Part shown: one piece after another, positions 9,543 through 59,096 of the stretch
Layout of the letters: the number at the start of each line of letters is the position of its first letter
Position numbering within the stretch: the stretch's first letter is position 1
DNA from: Acidobacteriota bacterium
GTDB lineage: Bacteria > Acidobacteriota > Terriglobia > Terriglobales > SCQP01
NCBI GenBank assembly: GCA_027459505.1
Contig: DAIDIE010000043.1
Span: forward strand, 124,001-188,000
DNA: 64,000 bases
Direction of reading: 5' to 3'
The notes under the pieces: generated by a model
The model's input: only the letters and a program-made list of their open reading frames with translations
Databases searched by the model: none
Told to the model about the DNA's origin: nothing
Program-made: the position numbers and the translations under genes

Positions 9543-10118
9543 TTATAGAATACCGCGTACTGCCCGATCAAGGCTGCCGGGGTCCTCCAGTCCTTCGATC
9601 CGCTCGGCGATGGTGCCATCTTTGCGGACCAGCAGAGTGGTCGGAAGTCCCGTGGCCAAACCGTAGCTGCCGGAGAGCCGGTCCTGATCCATCACTACTG
9701 GATAGGTAAGGGGTGTCTGCTTGAGGAAGCTGAGCACGTCCTGTTTATGGTCGTCTTCGGAAATACCGACGATGACCAGGCCCTTGTTGGCGTACTGCTT
9801 CTGCAACTGTTCCCAAATGGGGATCTCTTCGCGGCAAGGCCCGCACCAGGTAGCCCAGAAGTCGAGGACGACAGGGTGGCCTTTAAAAGCGGAGAGGCTA
9901 AGTTGCGTGCCCTCGGGGGTAGGCAGGCTCCAATTGGGCGCGATGCGGCCATCGATGTTGTCGCTGGTGAGCAGCGGCATTCCCGCCGTGGTTCCCGCCT
10001 TGGCCATCTGCTCGCGCCTGACGTGGGCAATGTAGACGAGACCTCCAACCACAACCAGGGTGATGATCGCCCAGTTCGTCAAGGCGTTGCGTCCGCGGAA
10101 TTTTGGTGAATCGGTCAT
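9543..10118 (-). CDS. TlpA/ResA-type membrane-anchored thioredoxin
   Basis: A 191-residue periplasmic thiol-disulfide oxidoreductase. One N-terminal anchor (WAIITLVVVGGLVYIA) precedes a thioredoxin-like domain with the redox motif WCGPC near residue 95 in FWATWCGPCREE and the cis-proline loop GLPTTLLV. Such proteins reduce apocytochrome c or disulfide-exchange partners with electrons supplied by CcdA. It lies 47 bp after ccdA on the same strand. AGAGG 4 nt before the ATG at 10118 supports that start; a start at 10160 is possible but would add 14 unrelated residues. Confidence 0.92.
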   Translation of the reverse strand: MTDSPKFRGRNALTNWAIITLVVVGGLVYIAHVRREQMAKAGTTAGMPLLTSDNIDGRIAPNWSLPTPEGTQLSLSAFKGHPVVLDFWATWCGPCREEIPIWEQLQKQYANKGLVIVGISEDDHKQDVLSFLKQTPLTYPVVMDQDRLSGSYGLATGLPTTLLVRKDGTIAERIEGLEDPGSLDRAVRGIL

Positions 10119-10165
10119 AAAACCTCTCAAGGTCCATTGATGGCGGCTGCCGGGGCTCATAGCCT

Positions 10166-10900
10166 TTACGACAGCATCTTGCTCAGTAGCGGTACCCGCG
10201 ACAGGTACCCGGAGATGATGGACAGGCTGGAGGTGAGCAAAAGCAGCCCTACCACGACCAGCAATCCGCCGGAAACCATCTCCACGGTGTGCAGATGTTT
10301 CCGGAAGCCCTTATAAAACAGCGTAAAACGATCCAGGGCAATGGCGGTCAGAAAAAACGGAATCGCCAAACCGAGGGTGTAGGTGGCCAGGAGCAGGACG
10401 CCCAGGTGAACCGATTTCTGTGTTGCGGCAAGGCCGAGAATCGTCGCCAGGACGGGCCCAATGCAAGGGGTCCAGCCCAAGGCGAAGGCGATACCAATCA
10501 CCAGTGCGCCGATTCCAGTGCCGACACCAGCCTGACTGCGCAGCCGTTTGTCGGAGTACAGCGCGGTGATTTTCAGAACGCCCAGCAGGTGCAGGCCAAA
10601 CAGAATCACCACGATTCCCATAACCTGGCCGAGAATCACGCGGTATTGCAGCAGCAAGTGTCCAATCGAGCTGGCCGCCGCCCCCAGCGAGAGAAACACC
10701 AGCGAAAAGCCCAATATAAACAGCAGGGAATTGCGCAGCAGAAGGCCGCGCCGCACGTTGGATTGTCCATCACCCTGCGCCGCCAATTGGGAAGCGGTTC
10801 CGGAGAGCATCGACACATAGCCTGGGACCAAGGGCAAAACGCATGGCGAGAGGAACGACAGAATTCCGGCCAGGAAGGCGTAGGCAAAGCTGATATGCAT
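10166..10900 (-). CDS. ccdA: CcdA-type transmembrane thiol electron transporter
   Basis: A 244-residue inner-membrane protein that carries reducing equivalents from cytoplasmic thioredoxin to periplasmic partners. About six transmembrane helices can be read. The two redox cysteines are in the hallmark SFLSPCVLPLVPGY near residue 20 and in GWTPCIGP further on, as in CcdA and the membrane domain of DsbD. It is the first gene of an operon with a TlpA-like thioredoxin, a small secreted protein and a DsbD alpha-like protein. The first ATG follows no clear ribosome binding site. Confidence 0.93.
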   Translation of the reverse strand: MHISFAYAFLAGILSFLSPCVLPLVPGYVSMLSGTASQLAAQGDGQSNVRRGLLLRNSLLFILGFSLVFLSLGAAASSIGHLLLQYRVILGQVMGIVVILFGLHLLGVLKITALYSDKRLRSQAGVGTGIGALVIGIAFALGWTPCIGPVLATILGLAATQKSVHLGVLLLATYTLGLAIPFFLTAIALDRFTLFYKGFRKHLHTVEMVSGGLLVVVGLLLLTSSLSIISGYLSRVPLLSKMLS

Positions 10901-50752: not shown

Positions 50753-53700
50753 ATGTCCACTTCACGCCGTACGTTTTTGAAGAGCAGTACCTTCGCCGCG
50801 GCCAGCGCCGCATTGGGGGAGTTGGCCGGCAAAAGCAAGGCGGGCGCGCAGCAACCTGCCGCGGACAACGCCGCGCCCCTGCAGGAGACGCCTGCTCTTT
50901 TTGACAGCCCCGCCGCCGCCGGGTTTACCCGCGGCATTGGCATCTATCCCGGCGACCCGCGCCAGTTCACCGGTCCCTCGCTCGTCCTCGACACCAGCAA
51001 CGCCTATCGCAATCTCGCGCTGCTGCGTCCGGCCTACCACTCCAGCAGCTACGATTACAACCTCACCGCTCAGCTTGTCACCGACGGCATCAAAGACTCC
51101 GTGCTGCCCACCTGGGTCGTCACTTCGGTCAGTCCTGGCTTTGTTCTGCCCAAAGATGAACGCGAGTTCGTTCTCGATCACGCCCCCACCAGCGTCACTC
51201 CAGTGCGCGGACCGGAGGGTTGGATTCAGGTGCAGCTCGGGGGCGGGGAACAGCTTCCGGCTGTCGACGCGGTTGCCATCACCATGGTCGCGCGCAGCTA
51301 TAGCGGTCATCCGCGCAGCTTTACCCTGAAGCTCCTGGGTTCCGCCGATGGCCATGTCTGGACCCAACTCGGGACGGTCAGTAACCCTGCTGCCGCTCCT
51401 TTGACCGGCTATCCCCCGGACTTCGCCCGCCCCGGCGAGTTGTTCAAGCCTGAAATCGACTTCAGCGCGCCGGTGTCGCTGCGCTACTACCGGCTGGTGT
51501 GCGAGGGCGAGGGCGACTTCGCAATTGGCGAAATCAAGTTCTTTCACCAGAAACAGCGCGTCGAATTCGGCGGCCCTTACAGCTTTACCAGTGCCTGGAT
51601 GAGCGCCGGCCTGGACGAGGAGTGGGTGTATGTCGATCTCGGCGGCAGCTTCTCCTTTGACCGCGTGAAGCTCTACTGGATTGCCCCTCCCGCCGCCGGC
51701 TCGCTGCAAGTCTCCGATGACGCGCAGAACTGGAAGACGGTTCAGGCGCTCCCCACCGCCGCTCCGGTGCATGATCTCCGTCTGAGTGGCGTGCGTGCCC
51801 GTTACGTGCGCGTACTGCTGACCAAGCCCAGCGCCCCATACGGCTATATCCTCAGCGAGTTTGAAGTCTATGGACGCGGCGGCTTCATTGCCCAGCCGCA
51901 GGCTCAACCGCAACCCGCGAATGGCCGCCTTGACCTGACTGGTGGCTCCTGGCGGCTGCAGCGCGACTCGCTGGTATCGGCCCAGCCCGCTGCCATCGCC
52001 ACCACCGGCTTTGCCGCGGATGCATGGCTGCCGGCTACCGTTCCCGGCACCGTGCTGGCCTCCTACCGTAATCTGGGCGCCATTCCTGATCCCAACTACG
52101 CCGATAATCAACTGCAGATCTCCGATTCCTACTTCTACGCTGACTTTTGGTATCGCACCGAATTCACCGCGCCAACCACGAAAAAGGGCGAGCGGCAGTG
52201 GTTGAATTTTGATGGCCTCAACTGGAAGGGCGAGATCTATCTCAACGGTCAGCACCTGGGCGCCATCGACGGCGGCTTTATGCGTGGACGCTTCGACGTC
52301 ACCAGCCTGCTGCGTCCAGGTCCAAGCAACGCGCTAGCGGTGCTGGTCCGCAAAAATGCCACCCCGGGAAGCTGCAAACAGAAAACCTTTCAGAGTTCTG
52401 GCAAAAACGGCGGCGCCCTCGGCCTGGATAACCCCACCTACCACGCCTCCATTGGCTGGGACTGGATTCCCACCATCCGCGGCCGCAATACCGGCATCTG
52501 GGATGACGTTTACCTCACCACCAGCGGCCCGGTCCTGATTGAAAACCCCCTGGTCACCACCCAGCTCCCGCTGCCGTCCACCCAATCGGCCGACGTAACC
52601 CTGAGTCTGGAGCTGGCCAACTACGCCGCCAAAACCGTCTCGGGCAATCTGCGCGTTCGTTTCGGGGACATCCAGCTTCATGATCACGTGAGCGTCGCGG
52701 CAGGGAAGCGCCAGACCGTCACCCTCAATGCCACACGCTTTAAGCAGTTGCACATCGAGAATCCGCGCCTCTGGTGGCCCAACGGTTATGGCGAGCCATC
52801 GTTGTACGAGGTCGAGATCAGCTTTGAGCCGCATGGCGCCCCCGCCGATCGCAAAATCTTCAACACCGGCATTCGCCAGATTACCCGTGACGTCGTTCCC
52901 GTGGAGAACGGCCATGCTTTGCGCATGTTCGTCAATGGACGACGCTTCATTCCTCGCGGCGGAAACTGGGGCTTTGCCGAATCCATGCTGCTGTACCGCG
53001 CCCGCGAATACGACGCCGCGTTGCGCTACCACCGCGAAATGAACATGAACATGGTGCGCAACTGGGTAGGGCAGATCGGCGACGACGAGTTCTACCAGGC
53101 CTGCGATCGCCACGGCATTGTCGTCATGCAGGACTTCTGGCTGGCCAATCCCTGGGACGGTCCCGAACCCTCTGACGACAACCTGTTCATGAGCAATGCC
53201 CGCGACCTGGTCAAGCGCATTCGCCATCACGCCTCAATCGGACTCTACTGCGGCCGTAACGAGGGCTATCCGCCAGTTCCCCTGCGCCAGGAATTGCCCC
53301 AACTCGTTGCCCAATTGCATCCCGGCATTCCTTACATTGGGAGTTCCGCCGACGATGTGGTCAGCGGACACGGCCCCTATATGGCCATGCCTCCGGACTT
53401 CTATTTCAAGCACGCCGCCTCGCGCCACTTTCACAGCGAGATCGGCATGCCCAACATTCCCAGCCTGGAGAGCGTCAGCCTGATGATGCCACCCGCGCAG
53501 ATGTGGCCGCAGGGCCTCACCTGGGGCCTGCACGACTTCTGCCTGGAAGGGGCGCAGGGCGGAGTCACTTTCCGCGGCATGGTGGACGACAACTATGGCG
53601 GCGCCACCAGCGCGGCCGACTGGATCAGCCTCGCGCAGTTCATCAACTACTCGGGCTACAAGGCCATGTTCGAGGCCCAGAGCAAGCACCGTATGGGGCT

Positions 53701-54400
53701 GCTCATCTGGATGAGCCACCCCTGTTGGCCCTCCTTCGTGTGGCAAACCTACGACTACTACCTGGAACCCACCGCCGCCTATTTCGGGGCCAAACAGGCC
53801 AACGAGCCGCTGCACATCCAGTGGAATCAGGCGGACGACACCGTCGAGGTGGTCAATTACAGCGCCGGCGCGGTCAGCGGCCTTACCGCATTGGTTGAAG
53901 TCATCAACTCCGATGGCGCGGTGAAGTGGCGCACCCAGGCGGCGCTCACCAGCGCCGAGGACTCGACCGCCGCTCCTATTCGCATGCAGTACCCGGCGGG
54001 CCTGACCCCGGTACACTTCATCCGGCTGCGCTTGAGCCAGGGCGGCAAGCTGCTCTCACAGAACCTCTACTGGCGCGGCGCGGAGCAGGGCAATTATCGC
54101 GCCCTGCGCGATCTGCCCATGGTCAAACTGCAGGCCAACACCAGCGTGCAGCAAGAGGGCGAGATTTGGCGCCTGAGCACGGCGCTGCATAATCCGGGAA
54201 CGAGCGCAGCGCTTCTGGTGCGGCTCAAAGCCGTGGGCGAACGCAGCGGTGACCGCATCTTGCCGGTGATCTACGAGGACAATTACTTCGCGCTCATGCC
54301 GGGGGAAACCCGCGTGATCAGCAGCGAACTACGGCAGTCGGACACGCGCGGCGAACCACCCGCCATCCGCGTGGAAGGCTTTAACGTTGCGGCGAGATGA
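50753..54400 (+). CDS. Large Tat-exported GH2-family glycosidase (exo-beta-glucosaminidase/mannosidase-like)
   Basis: A 1215-residue enzyme with a twin-arginine signal (SRRTFLK). Next come two discoidin-like F5/8 type C modules (about 70-380) that probably bind sugars. A GH2 sugar-binding jellyroll, Ig-like domain and TIM barrel follow (about 395-1000), then C-terminal beta domains. In the barrel the acid/base glutamate is in YCGRNEGYPP near residue 835 and the nucleophile in HSEIGMPNIPS near 895. The overall plan resembles exo-beta-D-glucosaminidases and beta-mannosidases; the substrate is not certain. The ATG follows GGGGGAG. It is flanked by unrelated genes. Confidence 0.88.
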   Translation: MSTSRRTFLKSSTFAAASAALGELAGKSKAGAQQPAADNAAPLQETPALFDSPAAAGFTRGIGIYPGDPRQFTGPSLVLDTSNAYRNLALLRPAYHSSSYDYNLTAQLVTDGIKDSVLPTWVVTSVSPGFVLPKDEREFVLDHAPTSVTPVRGPEGWIQVQLGGGEQLPAVDAVAITMVARSYSGHPRSFTLKLLGSADGHVWTQLGTVSNPAAAPLTGYPPDFARPGELFKPEIDFSAPVSLRYYRLVCEGEGDFAIGEIKFFHQKQRVEFGGPYSFTSAWMSAGLDEEWVYVDLGGSFSFDRVKLYWIAPPAAGSLQVSDDAQNWKTVQALPTAAPVHDLRLSGVRARYVRVLLTKPSAPYGYILSEFEVYGRGGFIAQPQAQPQPANGRLDLTGGSWRLQRDSLVSAQPAAIATTGFAADAWLPATVPGTVLASYRNLGAIPDPNYADNQLQISDSYFYADFWYRTEFTAPTTKKGERQWLNFDGLNWKGEIYLNGQHLGAIDGGFMRGRFDVTSLLRPGPSNALAVLVRKNATPGSCKQKTFQSSGKNGGALGLDNPTYHASIGWDWIPTIRGRNTGIWDDVYLTTSGPVLIENPLVTTQLPLPSTQSADVTLSLELANYAAKTVSGNLRVRFGDIQLHDHVSVAAGKRQTVTLNATRFKQLHIENPRLWWPNGYGEPSLYEVEISFEPHGAPADRKIFNTGIRQITRDVVPVENGHALRMFVNGRRFIPRGGNWGFAESMLLYRAREYDAALRYHREMNMNMVRNWVGQIGDDEFYQACDRHGIVVMQDFWLANPWDGPEPSDDNLFMSNARDLVKRIRHHASIGLYCGRNEGYPPVPLRQELPQLVAQLHPGIPYIGSSADDVVSGHGPYMAMPPDFYFKHAASRHFHSEIGMPNIPSLESVSLMMPPAQMWPQGLTWGLHDFCLEGAQGGVTFRGMVDDNYGGATSAADWISLAQFINYSGYKAMFEAQSKHRMGLLIWMSHPCWPSFVWQTYDYYLEPTAAYFGAKQANEPLHIQWNQADDTVEVVNYSAGAVSGLTALVEVINSDGAVKWRTQAALTSAEDSTAAPIRMQYPAGLTPVHFIRLRLSQGGKLLSQNLYWRGAEQGNYRALRDLPMVKLQANTSVQQEGEIWRLSTALHNPGTSAALLVRLKAVGERSGDRILPVIYEDNYFALMPGETRVISSELRQSDTRGEPPAIRVEGFNVAAR

Positions 54401-56088: not shown

Positions 56089-56665
56089 TTAACCGCCCCC
56101 TTGTGATCAGACTCCACTTCCCATAGAACTGAAGTAAGGTGCTACTGTTGTGTCTTTGTAAAAAGAAACTCCAGGACCACGGCAAGAGGGACTTATAGTC
56201 CATGCTGCTGCTCACAACTTAAGCCGGGGAGCGTGATTAGTAAGTTAATGTACTGACACTAAACGTGCACTGGTGCGTATAGTCCAACAAAGACCAAGGG
56301 GACGGTGACTTCTGAGCACGGAATCACCCGTCTGTGCCGCCTCCGGTATCGAAGAGACCGGCCGGGGCGGGTTTGGGCGCAGTATCGGTCCTGGCAGGAT
56401 GTGCGGCCCTCTCGGGCAAAACAGATGCTCGGTAGTCGGGAACTTCACGGGCTCGCCGGAGGAACAGCCAAACGCCGCGCAGGAGCGACGTCAGCGGGTG
56501 GCTCAGGAGACGAGGCCAAGCGTTTTCTGCCCCGATGCATAGAGTGCCGCGCTCACCGCTTCAGCCCCTGTTTCCCTGTTTTCCGGCACTCGACTCCCCG
56601 CGTTCGACCTGCTATAAATAGCTGACGGCCAGCAGTTGCCCCAAGTCCCGAGGGGAGACGTCTCT
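56089..56665. other. 577-bp intergenic region before the selenoprotein gene
   Basis: It contains the upstream region of the minus-strand secreted protein, the second 26-bp repeat copy, and near 56611-56622 a TATAAA inside the arms GCTAT/ATAGC that could be the peroxiredoxin promoter. The palindrome GAGACGTCTC lies between ribosome binding site and ATG (56655-56664). No gene is seen. Confidence 0.5.
56492..56517 (+). repeat. Short 26-bp repeat, copy 2
   Basis: Matches 26312-26337 at 25 of 26 positions. It is intergenic, upstream of the selenoprotein gene. Confidence 0.6.
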
Positions 56666-57232
56666 ATGCGAAAGACTCTGATCGCCGGCCTGCTCTGCGC
56701 CGCGTTGTCGTGCGCGGCCGCGGCGCAATCCGGTCATATTGTCCGCACTCAACTCAAAGTCGGACAAAAAGCCCCCGACTTCACCCTGCTGGACGACCAC
56801 TTCCAGCCGGTCTCGCTCCATCAGTTCCGCGGCAAACAGAAGGTCATCCTCGCCATCTACCTGCTCGCCTTCACCCCCGGTTGAAAGCAGGAGTTGCAGG
56901 GCTATCAGGCTGATAGCCAGAAATTGAAAGCTGCCAATACCGTCGTTCTGGGCATGAGCATGGATTCACCCGCCGCCAATGGCGTCTTCGCCAAGCAGAT
57001 CGGGGTCACCTTCCCGTTGCTCAGCGATCCCGCCGGATTCGTGGAGAAGCAGTACGGCGTGCTGGACGCGAGAAACACCATCCATGGCGTGAAATTCGCC
57101 ATCGCCCGCCGCACCACGTTTGTGATCGACAAGCAGGGCATCATCCGCCACATTGACGTCAGTGACACCGCGCTGAATCCCAACAACGCCGTCGCGTTCT
57201 GTCTCCTGCACGCGCATGGCAAAGGGAAGTAG
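56666..57232 (+). CDS. Selenocysteine-containing secreted peroxiredoxin (UGA at 56882-56884 read as Sec)
   Basis: A 188-residue thioredoxin-fold peroxidase if the in-frame TGA at codon 73 is read as selenocysteine. Before it are a signal peptide (LIAGLLCAALSCAAAAQ) and the AhpC/TSA start VGQKAPDFTLLDDH. After it the frame continues without interruption through SMDSPAANGVFAKQ, FPLLSDPAGFVEKQYGV and RRTTFVIDKQGIIRH, including the conserved arginine. The TGA falls in LAFTPG-U-KQEL, exactly where peroxiredoxins have the peroxidatic cysteine three residues after threonine. The conserved Pro at U-7 is replaced by Leu. A C-terminal cysteine (AFCLLHAH) could resolve the selenenic intermediate. A tRNA-Sec gene lies 63 bp downstream, convergent. 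Read conventionally it would be two fragments ending at 56884 and starting near 56894. Confidence 0.93.
56885..56918 (+). promoter_or_regulatory. Bacterial SECIS-like hairpin
   Basis: A perfect 8-bp stem, GGCTATCA (56900-56907) with TGATAGCC (56911-56918), closes a 3-nt loop GGC. It starts 15 nt after the UGA, with the loop about 25 nt after it, and the loop begins with G. These properties fit SelB-binding elements in bacteria, which lie just downstream of UGA inside the coding region. Confidence 0.8.
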
Positions 57233-57295: not shown

Positions 57296-57390
57296 TGGCG
57301 GAAGCGCATCGGAGTCGAACCGACCGAGCCCCGTAAAGAGGCCCCACTGGTTTTGAAGACCAGGGCAGCCACCGGACCACATGCGCTTCC
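57296..57390 (-). tRNA. selC: tRNA-Sec (anticodon UCA)
   Basis: A complete 95-nt selenocysteine tRNA with encoded CCA (57296-57298) and discriminator G. It has the diagnostic 8-bp acceptor stem GGAAGCGC/GCGCTTCC, a 5-bp T stem (8+5 architecture), a 6-bp D stem with a 4-nt CGGT loop, a 5-bp anticodon stem with loop CTTCAAA (anticodon at 57354-57356), and a 7-bp long variable arm. Length, D loop and the TTCGACTCC segment match the E. coli selC layout. It is convergent to the selenoprotein gene. selA, selB and selD are not within the window. Confidence 0.97.
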
Positions 57391-58580: not shown

Positions 58581-59096
58581 ATGGCTGGCCGATTCTTGCA
58601 ACGCCGTGACCCATACTTGTCCGACCTGTTTCAATTCCGCCGCAACTTCGATGATTTGTTCACCCAGATGCTGCAGCCGTTGGGCGTCTCCAGCAGCGAG
58701 CAGCAACTGAACTTGGGCTGGGTTCCGGCGATGGAGTGCTCGCTGGACCAGAGCCAGAACAAGTACCATGTCCGCCTGGCCTTGCCGGGCGTCAAGCCCG
58801 ACGAGGTCAATATCCAGGTGCATGGCAACGAGCTCACCATCAGCGGCGAGCGCCGTCAGGAGAGTGAACAGAAGCAGCGGCAGTACCTGCAGCGGGAGTT
58901 CAGCTATGGCGCCTTCGAGCGCAGCATCGCCTTGCCGGAGGGCATTGATCCCGACAAGATCGAAGCCCGCTTTGAGCAAGGGGTACTGAACATTACCGTG
59001 CCGCTTTCCGAAAAGGCTCAACCGAAACGTATTCAGATCCAGGGCGGCGAGTCTCAGCCCAGGCAGGTTTCCGCCAAGGCCGAGAAGGCTGCCTAA
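58581..59096 (+). CDS. Small heat shock protein, Hsp20/alpha-crystallin family
   Basis: A 171-residue ATP-independent holdase chaperone. The alpha-crystallin domain (about 48-145) is clear: YHVRLALPGVKPDEVNIQV, LTISGERRQ, FERSIALPEGID and the closing GVLNITVPLSE. A helical N-terminal arm (SDLFQFRRNFDDLFTQML) and a short tail complete it. AAGGAGGT lies 8 nt before the ATG. A good terminator follows 160 bp downstream. Confidence 0.96.
   Translation: MAGRFLQRRDPYLSDLFQFRRNFDDLFTQMLQPLGVSSSEQQLNLGWVPAMECSLDQSQNKYHVRLALPGVKPDEVNIQVHGNELTISGERRQESEQKQRQYLQREFSYGAFERSIALPEGIDPDKIEARFEQGVLNITVPLSEKAQPKRIQIQGGESQPRQVSAKAEKAA

Follow-up and report, generated by a model that had tools for sequence, protein, structure and literature searches.

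Two papers (PMC13188914, PMC9312934, citing Sohling 2001) list peroxiredoxins of the TxxU type as an experimentally supported selenoprotein family; 91 selenocysteine (Sec) peroxiredoxins from 78 organisms were counted in a 2016 survey (PMC5029168). For the Acidobacteriota, an early survey recorded three selenoprotein families with four proteins (PMC1794560), and a 2025 method paper gives three known selenoproteins in the Acidobacteriota strain Occallatibacter riparius (PMC12013277), among which the family described here may be included. A search of openly available article texts returned no description of an exported Sec peroxiredoxin. Because TxxU peroxiredoxins are already known, the novelty of the locus reported here lies in an exported subfamily and not in a new principle.

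We compared the protein with its closest described relatives. With the TxxU Sec peroxiredoxins (COG1225/PF00578; PrxU of Eubacterium acidaminophilum; NF040737) it has in common Sec in place of the peroxidatic cysteine, the TxxU motif and the AhpC/TSA fold (PMC13188914, PMC9312934). It differs from PrxU in its exported leader, in a single C-terminal cysteine 99-106 residues after Sec and in its occurrence throughout the Acidobacteriota, and it scored 59.5 bits with the PrxU model NF040737, for which the cut-off is 270. The best NCBIfam model was that of the BCP/PrxQ thiol peroxidases (NF006960; 84.4 bits, cut-off 140), and no equivalog cut-off was reached in the NCBIfam search. The TPGC/U motif is common to both, but the protein does not have the resolving cysteine that BCP/PrxQ enzymes carry five residues past the peroxidatic one, and BCP/PrxQ form a separate, fully supported clade. 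In both sequence and fold, the solved structures nearest to the protein include those of AhpE of Mycobacterium tuberculosis (Rv2238c) and Sulfolobus Bcp4/Bcp1. AhpE is a 1-Cys peroxiredoxin according to PDB titles; the exported family carries Sec, together with a leader and an extra C-terminal cysteine that is invariant. UxxC peroxiredoxin-like selenoproteins, of which this genome has two (L127 and L130), also combine the AhpC-TSA fold with Sec, but they carry a UxxC motif, show no clear leader and make up a separate subfamily.

A peroxiredoxin frame with one internal UGA

The gene lies at 56666..57232 on the + strand of the window (the whole stretch of 64,000 nucleotides that was analysed). 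A purine-rich sequence, GAGGGGAG, at 56650..56657 (+), read directly from the DNA 8 nt 5′ of the ATG, is a likely ribosome-binding site. The frame runs from 56666 to 57229 and ends in a TAG at 57230-57232, and the TGA at 56882-56884 is its sole internal stop. Translation with UGA as Sec gives 188 aa, beginning MRKTLIAGLLCAALSCAAAAQ and with the active-site stretch LAFTPGUKQELQ, which matches the AhpC-TSA domain (PF00578) over profile positions 1-124 of 124 (114 bits, E 4.1e-33). Frame translation and comparison with homologues place codon 73 (56882..56884, +) at the peroxidatic position of a TPG-U motif, in the column that holds the cysteine of T-P-G-C. The preliminary description had proposed two same-frame pieces parted only by a TGA, which together would make a full-length AhpC/TSA protein with the TGA exactly at the catalytic cysteine, and it had expected standard annotation to split the gene. 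Each of these points was borne out: one internal stop was found, at codon 73, the joined pieces cover the whole domain profile, the column aligns with the peroxidatic cysteine, and the mechanical list of open reading frames yields two fragments.

The same description had called the protein an exported selenoprotein with a signal peptide, and the composition of the leader supports this. The first ~20 aa (MRKTLIAGLLCAALSCAAAA; 56666..56725, +; cleavage site uncertain) resemble a signal peptide by composition, as read from MRKTLIAGLLCAALSCAAAAQ. A hydrophobic N-terminal stretch is present in 62/62 family copies, a set in which a few entries are the same gene fetched twice, whereas cytoplasmic BCP/AhpE relatives are without one. 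By the same measure of composition, nearly all 62 copies have a basic start followed by a hydrophobic core. The N-terminal leader thus probably marks the protein for export, and taking all the sequence evidence together, we conclude that the locus very probably encodes an exported selenocysteine peroxiredoxin. Elsewhere in the window, 50753-54400 (+) encodes a large protein with glycoside hydrolase family 2, exo-beta-D-glucosaminidase Ig-fold and F5/8 type C domains, and 58581-59096 (+) encodes an HSP20 small heat-shock protein.

Conservation and phylogeny in the Acidobacteriota

Of the 397 genomes sampled from the order, 109 contain a homologue with exactly one in-frame TGA. The same form turned up in many further families when 396 genomes across the phylum were searched with a profile. 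Given this recurrence, the one-TGA form is far beyond chance. All but one of the phylum matches listed above 140 bits have exactly one TGA; the exception, from genome G404, has none and is a BCP-type protein with cysteine. A clear tRNA-Sec (E < 1e-10) was present in 95 of the 109 gene-bearing genomes and in 56 of the 288 gene-free genomes, with both lists read by hand from tables (Fisher p 3e-36, a value that overstates independence because the genomes are related). The 14 gene-bearing genomes without a clear tRNA-Sec include many incomplete MAGs and some that are not incomplete. The two named relatives of the gene come from Acidobacteria/Terriglobia MAGs. A plasmid search returned only peroxiredoxins with <60% identity, the best among the matches listed at 44%.

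Every one of the 62 copies that were read over their full length has its TGA at this codon. An alignment of 30 members shows Sec at U73 and Cys at C179 without exception; further invariant positions include T70, G72, D121 and R149. The preliminary description had described both flanks of the TGA as well conserved, and this holds, since the half downstream of the UGA is as conserved as the upstream half in homologues down to ~43% identity. It had also proposed asking whether related genomes keep the TGA, with an unrelated residue at that column counting against Sec. Family copies keep the TGA throughout, BCP/PrxQ and AhpE relatives have cysteine, and the relatives read show Sec (TGA) or Cys only. 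We also considered matches with TAG or TAA as users of alternative Sec codons and rejected them; in each of the four that were read, the stop precedes the domain, close to where the match begins, and a cysteine occupies the active site.

A tree built from 78 proteins contains a 100/100 branch that separates all exported Sec members and the AhpE-like proteins from BCP/PrxQ and from the exported Cys peroxiredoxins that other members of the order carry. These exported Cys proteins are therefore not Sec-to-Cys versions of the Sec family, because they sit on the BCP/PrxQ side. The tree suggests that the Sec family is likely monophyletic and leaves its fork with the AhpE-like proteins open. No Cys version was found inside the exported clade in the order search, the phylum search or the tree. 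Nearby, cytoplasmic BCP proteins have TPG-U in two genomes (L099, L100) and TPG-C in a close sister genome (L094), and from these sequences a recent Sec/Cys exchange is apparent in this neighbouring group. Another type of Sec peroxiredoxin in the phylum is an AhpE-like protein (L102:271-690, genome G628) with the active site AWTSV-U-TTQ.

Since no Cys ortholog was found, the setting of the exported enzyme may demand selenium chemistry, for example resistance to over-oxidation. If the rule that there is no Cys form holds, the family is a natural setting in which to test why certain enzymes retain Sec over Cys, and how a Sec enzyme stays reduced outside the cytoplasm. Judged from these sequences, a large phylum with very few selenoproteins in the early survey would make wide use of Sec in an exported antioxidant enzyme, and mechanical gene calling splits the gene of that enzyme in two.

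Cys179 and the proposed catalytic cycle

We next considered how the Sec residue might be resolved. Exactly one cysteine follows Sec in 62/62 loci, 99 to 106 residues on and near the C-terminus, and the 50 residues that precede Sec contain no cysteine. In the window gene this is Cys179 (codon 57200..57202, +), the only Cys after Sec and invariant in the family. AlphaFold2 modelled the mature part with a pLDDT of 88 and a pTM of 0.85 and placed Cys159 (Cys179 in precursor numbering) in a C-terminal helix formed by mature residues 152-167. The best Foldseek matches to the model were Sulfolobus Bcp4/Bcp1 and M. tuberculosis AhpE. In the Prx5 (PRDX5) class the resolving cysteine lies ~104 residues after the peroxidatic one, in the C-terminal helix. 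This placement is like the spacing found here, although the window sequence is nearer to BCP/AhpE. We propose Cys179, with reasonable but far from full confidence, as a resolving cysteine in the last helix.

Under this proposal, the protein would be exported to the periplasm, where the selenolate of Sec73 would reduce peroxides and be converted to selenenic acid, Cys179 would resolve the selenenic acid to a Sec-Cys selenenylsulfide, and a membrane-fed thioredoxin-like protein of the CcdA/TlpA type would re-reduce it. The cycle would serve to protect the envelope from peroxides. The choice of a CcdA/TlpA-type reductant is a guess, to which we give slightly less than an even chance. Candidates occur in the window ~46 kb from the peroxiredoxin gene: a TlpA/ResA-like exported thioredoxin-fold protein with a WCGPC motif (9546..10160, -; PF00578 and PF00085, with CGPC read in L123), a possible reductant, and a CcdA/DsbD-type transmembrane protein (10169..10900, -; PF02683, E 1.3e-15), a possible carrier of electrons to the periplasm. 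A simple survey of open reading frames around 13 family loci found no evident conserved operon partners, and since the neighbour genes are not conserved, no dedicated reductase is indicated. A wider proposal, which we hold to be evenly balanced, is that these proteins form an exported peroxiredoxin subfamily that spans the phylum, uses Sec exclusively and works outside the cytoplasm through an intramolecular pair of Sec and a Cys in the C-terminal helix.

The protein might instead be an exported selenoprotein peroxidase of the 1-Cys, AhpE-like kind, in which Cys179 would be structural or inter-subunit and an external thiol would reduce the selenenic acid directly. In favour of this assignment, M. 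tuberculosis AhpE, a 1-Cys enzyme, is among the neighbours by fold and by sequence, and the BCP-type resolving Cys at +5 is missing. Against it, Cys179 is invariant in 62/62 copies and is the sole further thiol observed in the mature protein, which would be unusual for a structural residue. We consider the 1-Cys assignment unlikely, though still a serious competitor to a resolving role for Cys179. It is very improbable that the protein is a ResA/TlpA-type thiol:disulfide oxidoreductase and not a peroxidase; the AhpC-TSA fold is shared and the genome has several TlpA/ResA-like proteins, but the family has no CxxC or UxxC motif, and its TxGU motif and later conserved arginine (R149) are of the peroxiredoxin type.

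Probable recoding of the UGA codon

Immediately downstream of the UGA we found a hairpin with the features of a bacterial SECIS element. It spans 56900..56918 (+), reads GGCUAUCA-GGC-UGAUAGCC, starts 15 nt 3′ of the UGA and has a perfect 8 bp stem with a 3-nt loop beginning GG, in keeping with the small loop, G in the first two loop positions and placement right after the UGA that characterise bacterial SECIS hairpins. A covariance model (R1) for which 16 sequences were taken from bacterial families other than that of the window's genome matched the window at the UGA (56882-56928) with 41 bits and E 3.1e-8, against 11 bits for the second-best match, a score that owes part to conserved protein-coding sequence. 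A search of Rfam with the hairpin returned no matching family.

Two types of hairpin follow the UGA in the family. Type I (n=27, the window included) has the form GGCgUAUCA-GGC-UGAUAuCGCC, with the loop variants GGC, GUC, GGG and GGA, and in type II (n=32) the stem is longer, for example GCUUUCCAG...CUGGAAGC, and encloses a loop of ~13 nt. In the type I alignment, pairs 21-36 and 24-32 change on both sides (8 cells compared with 1.6 in shuffles), 95% of cells are paired and the pairing is lost when the partner is slid. The working structure of type II is less certain than that of type I. Type II hairpins, often with a bulged U, were seen in the order's family f2 and in f27 (loci L022-L044, L053-L062 minus L055 and L060, and L080). 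When synonymous codons were randomised, all 59 distinct sequences proved more stable than their own mean (mean z -1.7); the window's hairpin region alone gave a modest fold z-score of -0.9. The stem codons TAT and GCT are rare elsewhere in the family genes.

The genome (4.06 Mb, 45 contigs, 97% complete) contains selA (543 bits), selB (325 bits, with its neighbours) and selD (351 bits), and the tRNA-Sec gene selC, with a UCA anticodon, lies in the window at 57300..57390 (-), convergent with the peroxiredoxin gene and 67 bp past its stop (ARAGORN; RF01852, 79.7 bits). The absence of selA, selB and selD from the genome had been put forward as an argument against Sec, and all three, along with the tRNA-Sec, are present. 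Linkage to tRNA-Sec was rejected as a general rule, as the two genes are adjacent here, ~5.8 kb apart in G011 and unlinked in the other family loci examined. With the SECIS hairpin downstream and the SelA/SelB/SelD/tRNA-Sec set complete, codon 73 shows at the sequence level the behaviour of a Sec codon; SelB would bind the hairpin and deliver Sec-tRNA to the UGA.

A pseudogene or sequencing error, with the UGA a true nonsense mutation and the downstream piece decaying, would account for the two fragments in the mechanical list, but this reading is refuted because >100 genomes from across the phylum, down to ~43% identity, have kept both the UGA and an equally conserved downstream half. It also conflicts with the SECIS covariation and is exceedingly improbable. 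Equally negligible is the chance that a changed code or unspecific readthrough inserts tryptophan or another ordinary residue, for which no support was found, as the only tRNA with a UCA anticodon in the window is of the tRNA-Sec type, several family members use TGA as a true stop, relatives have Cys and not Trp at the column, and the sel genes are present.

Four other genes of the genome have an in-frame UGA. In fdhA (ARI-U-HS; L129, G000:C24:122041-122979, -) and selD (GUAGK; L011, G000:C24:313736-314662, +) it falls at the usual Sec position. The remaining two are further probable selenoproteins of the UxxC peroxiredoxin-like kind, L127:1501-1836 (-) on G000:C39 and L130:1156-1449 (+) on G000:C31, with the motifs GVWUPSC and HYGUIFC, respectively.
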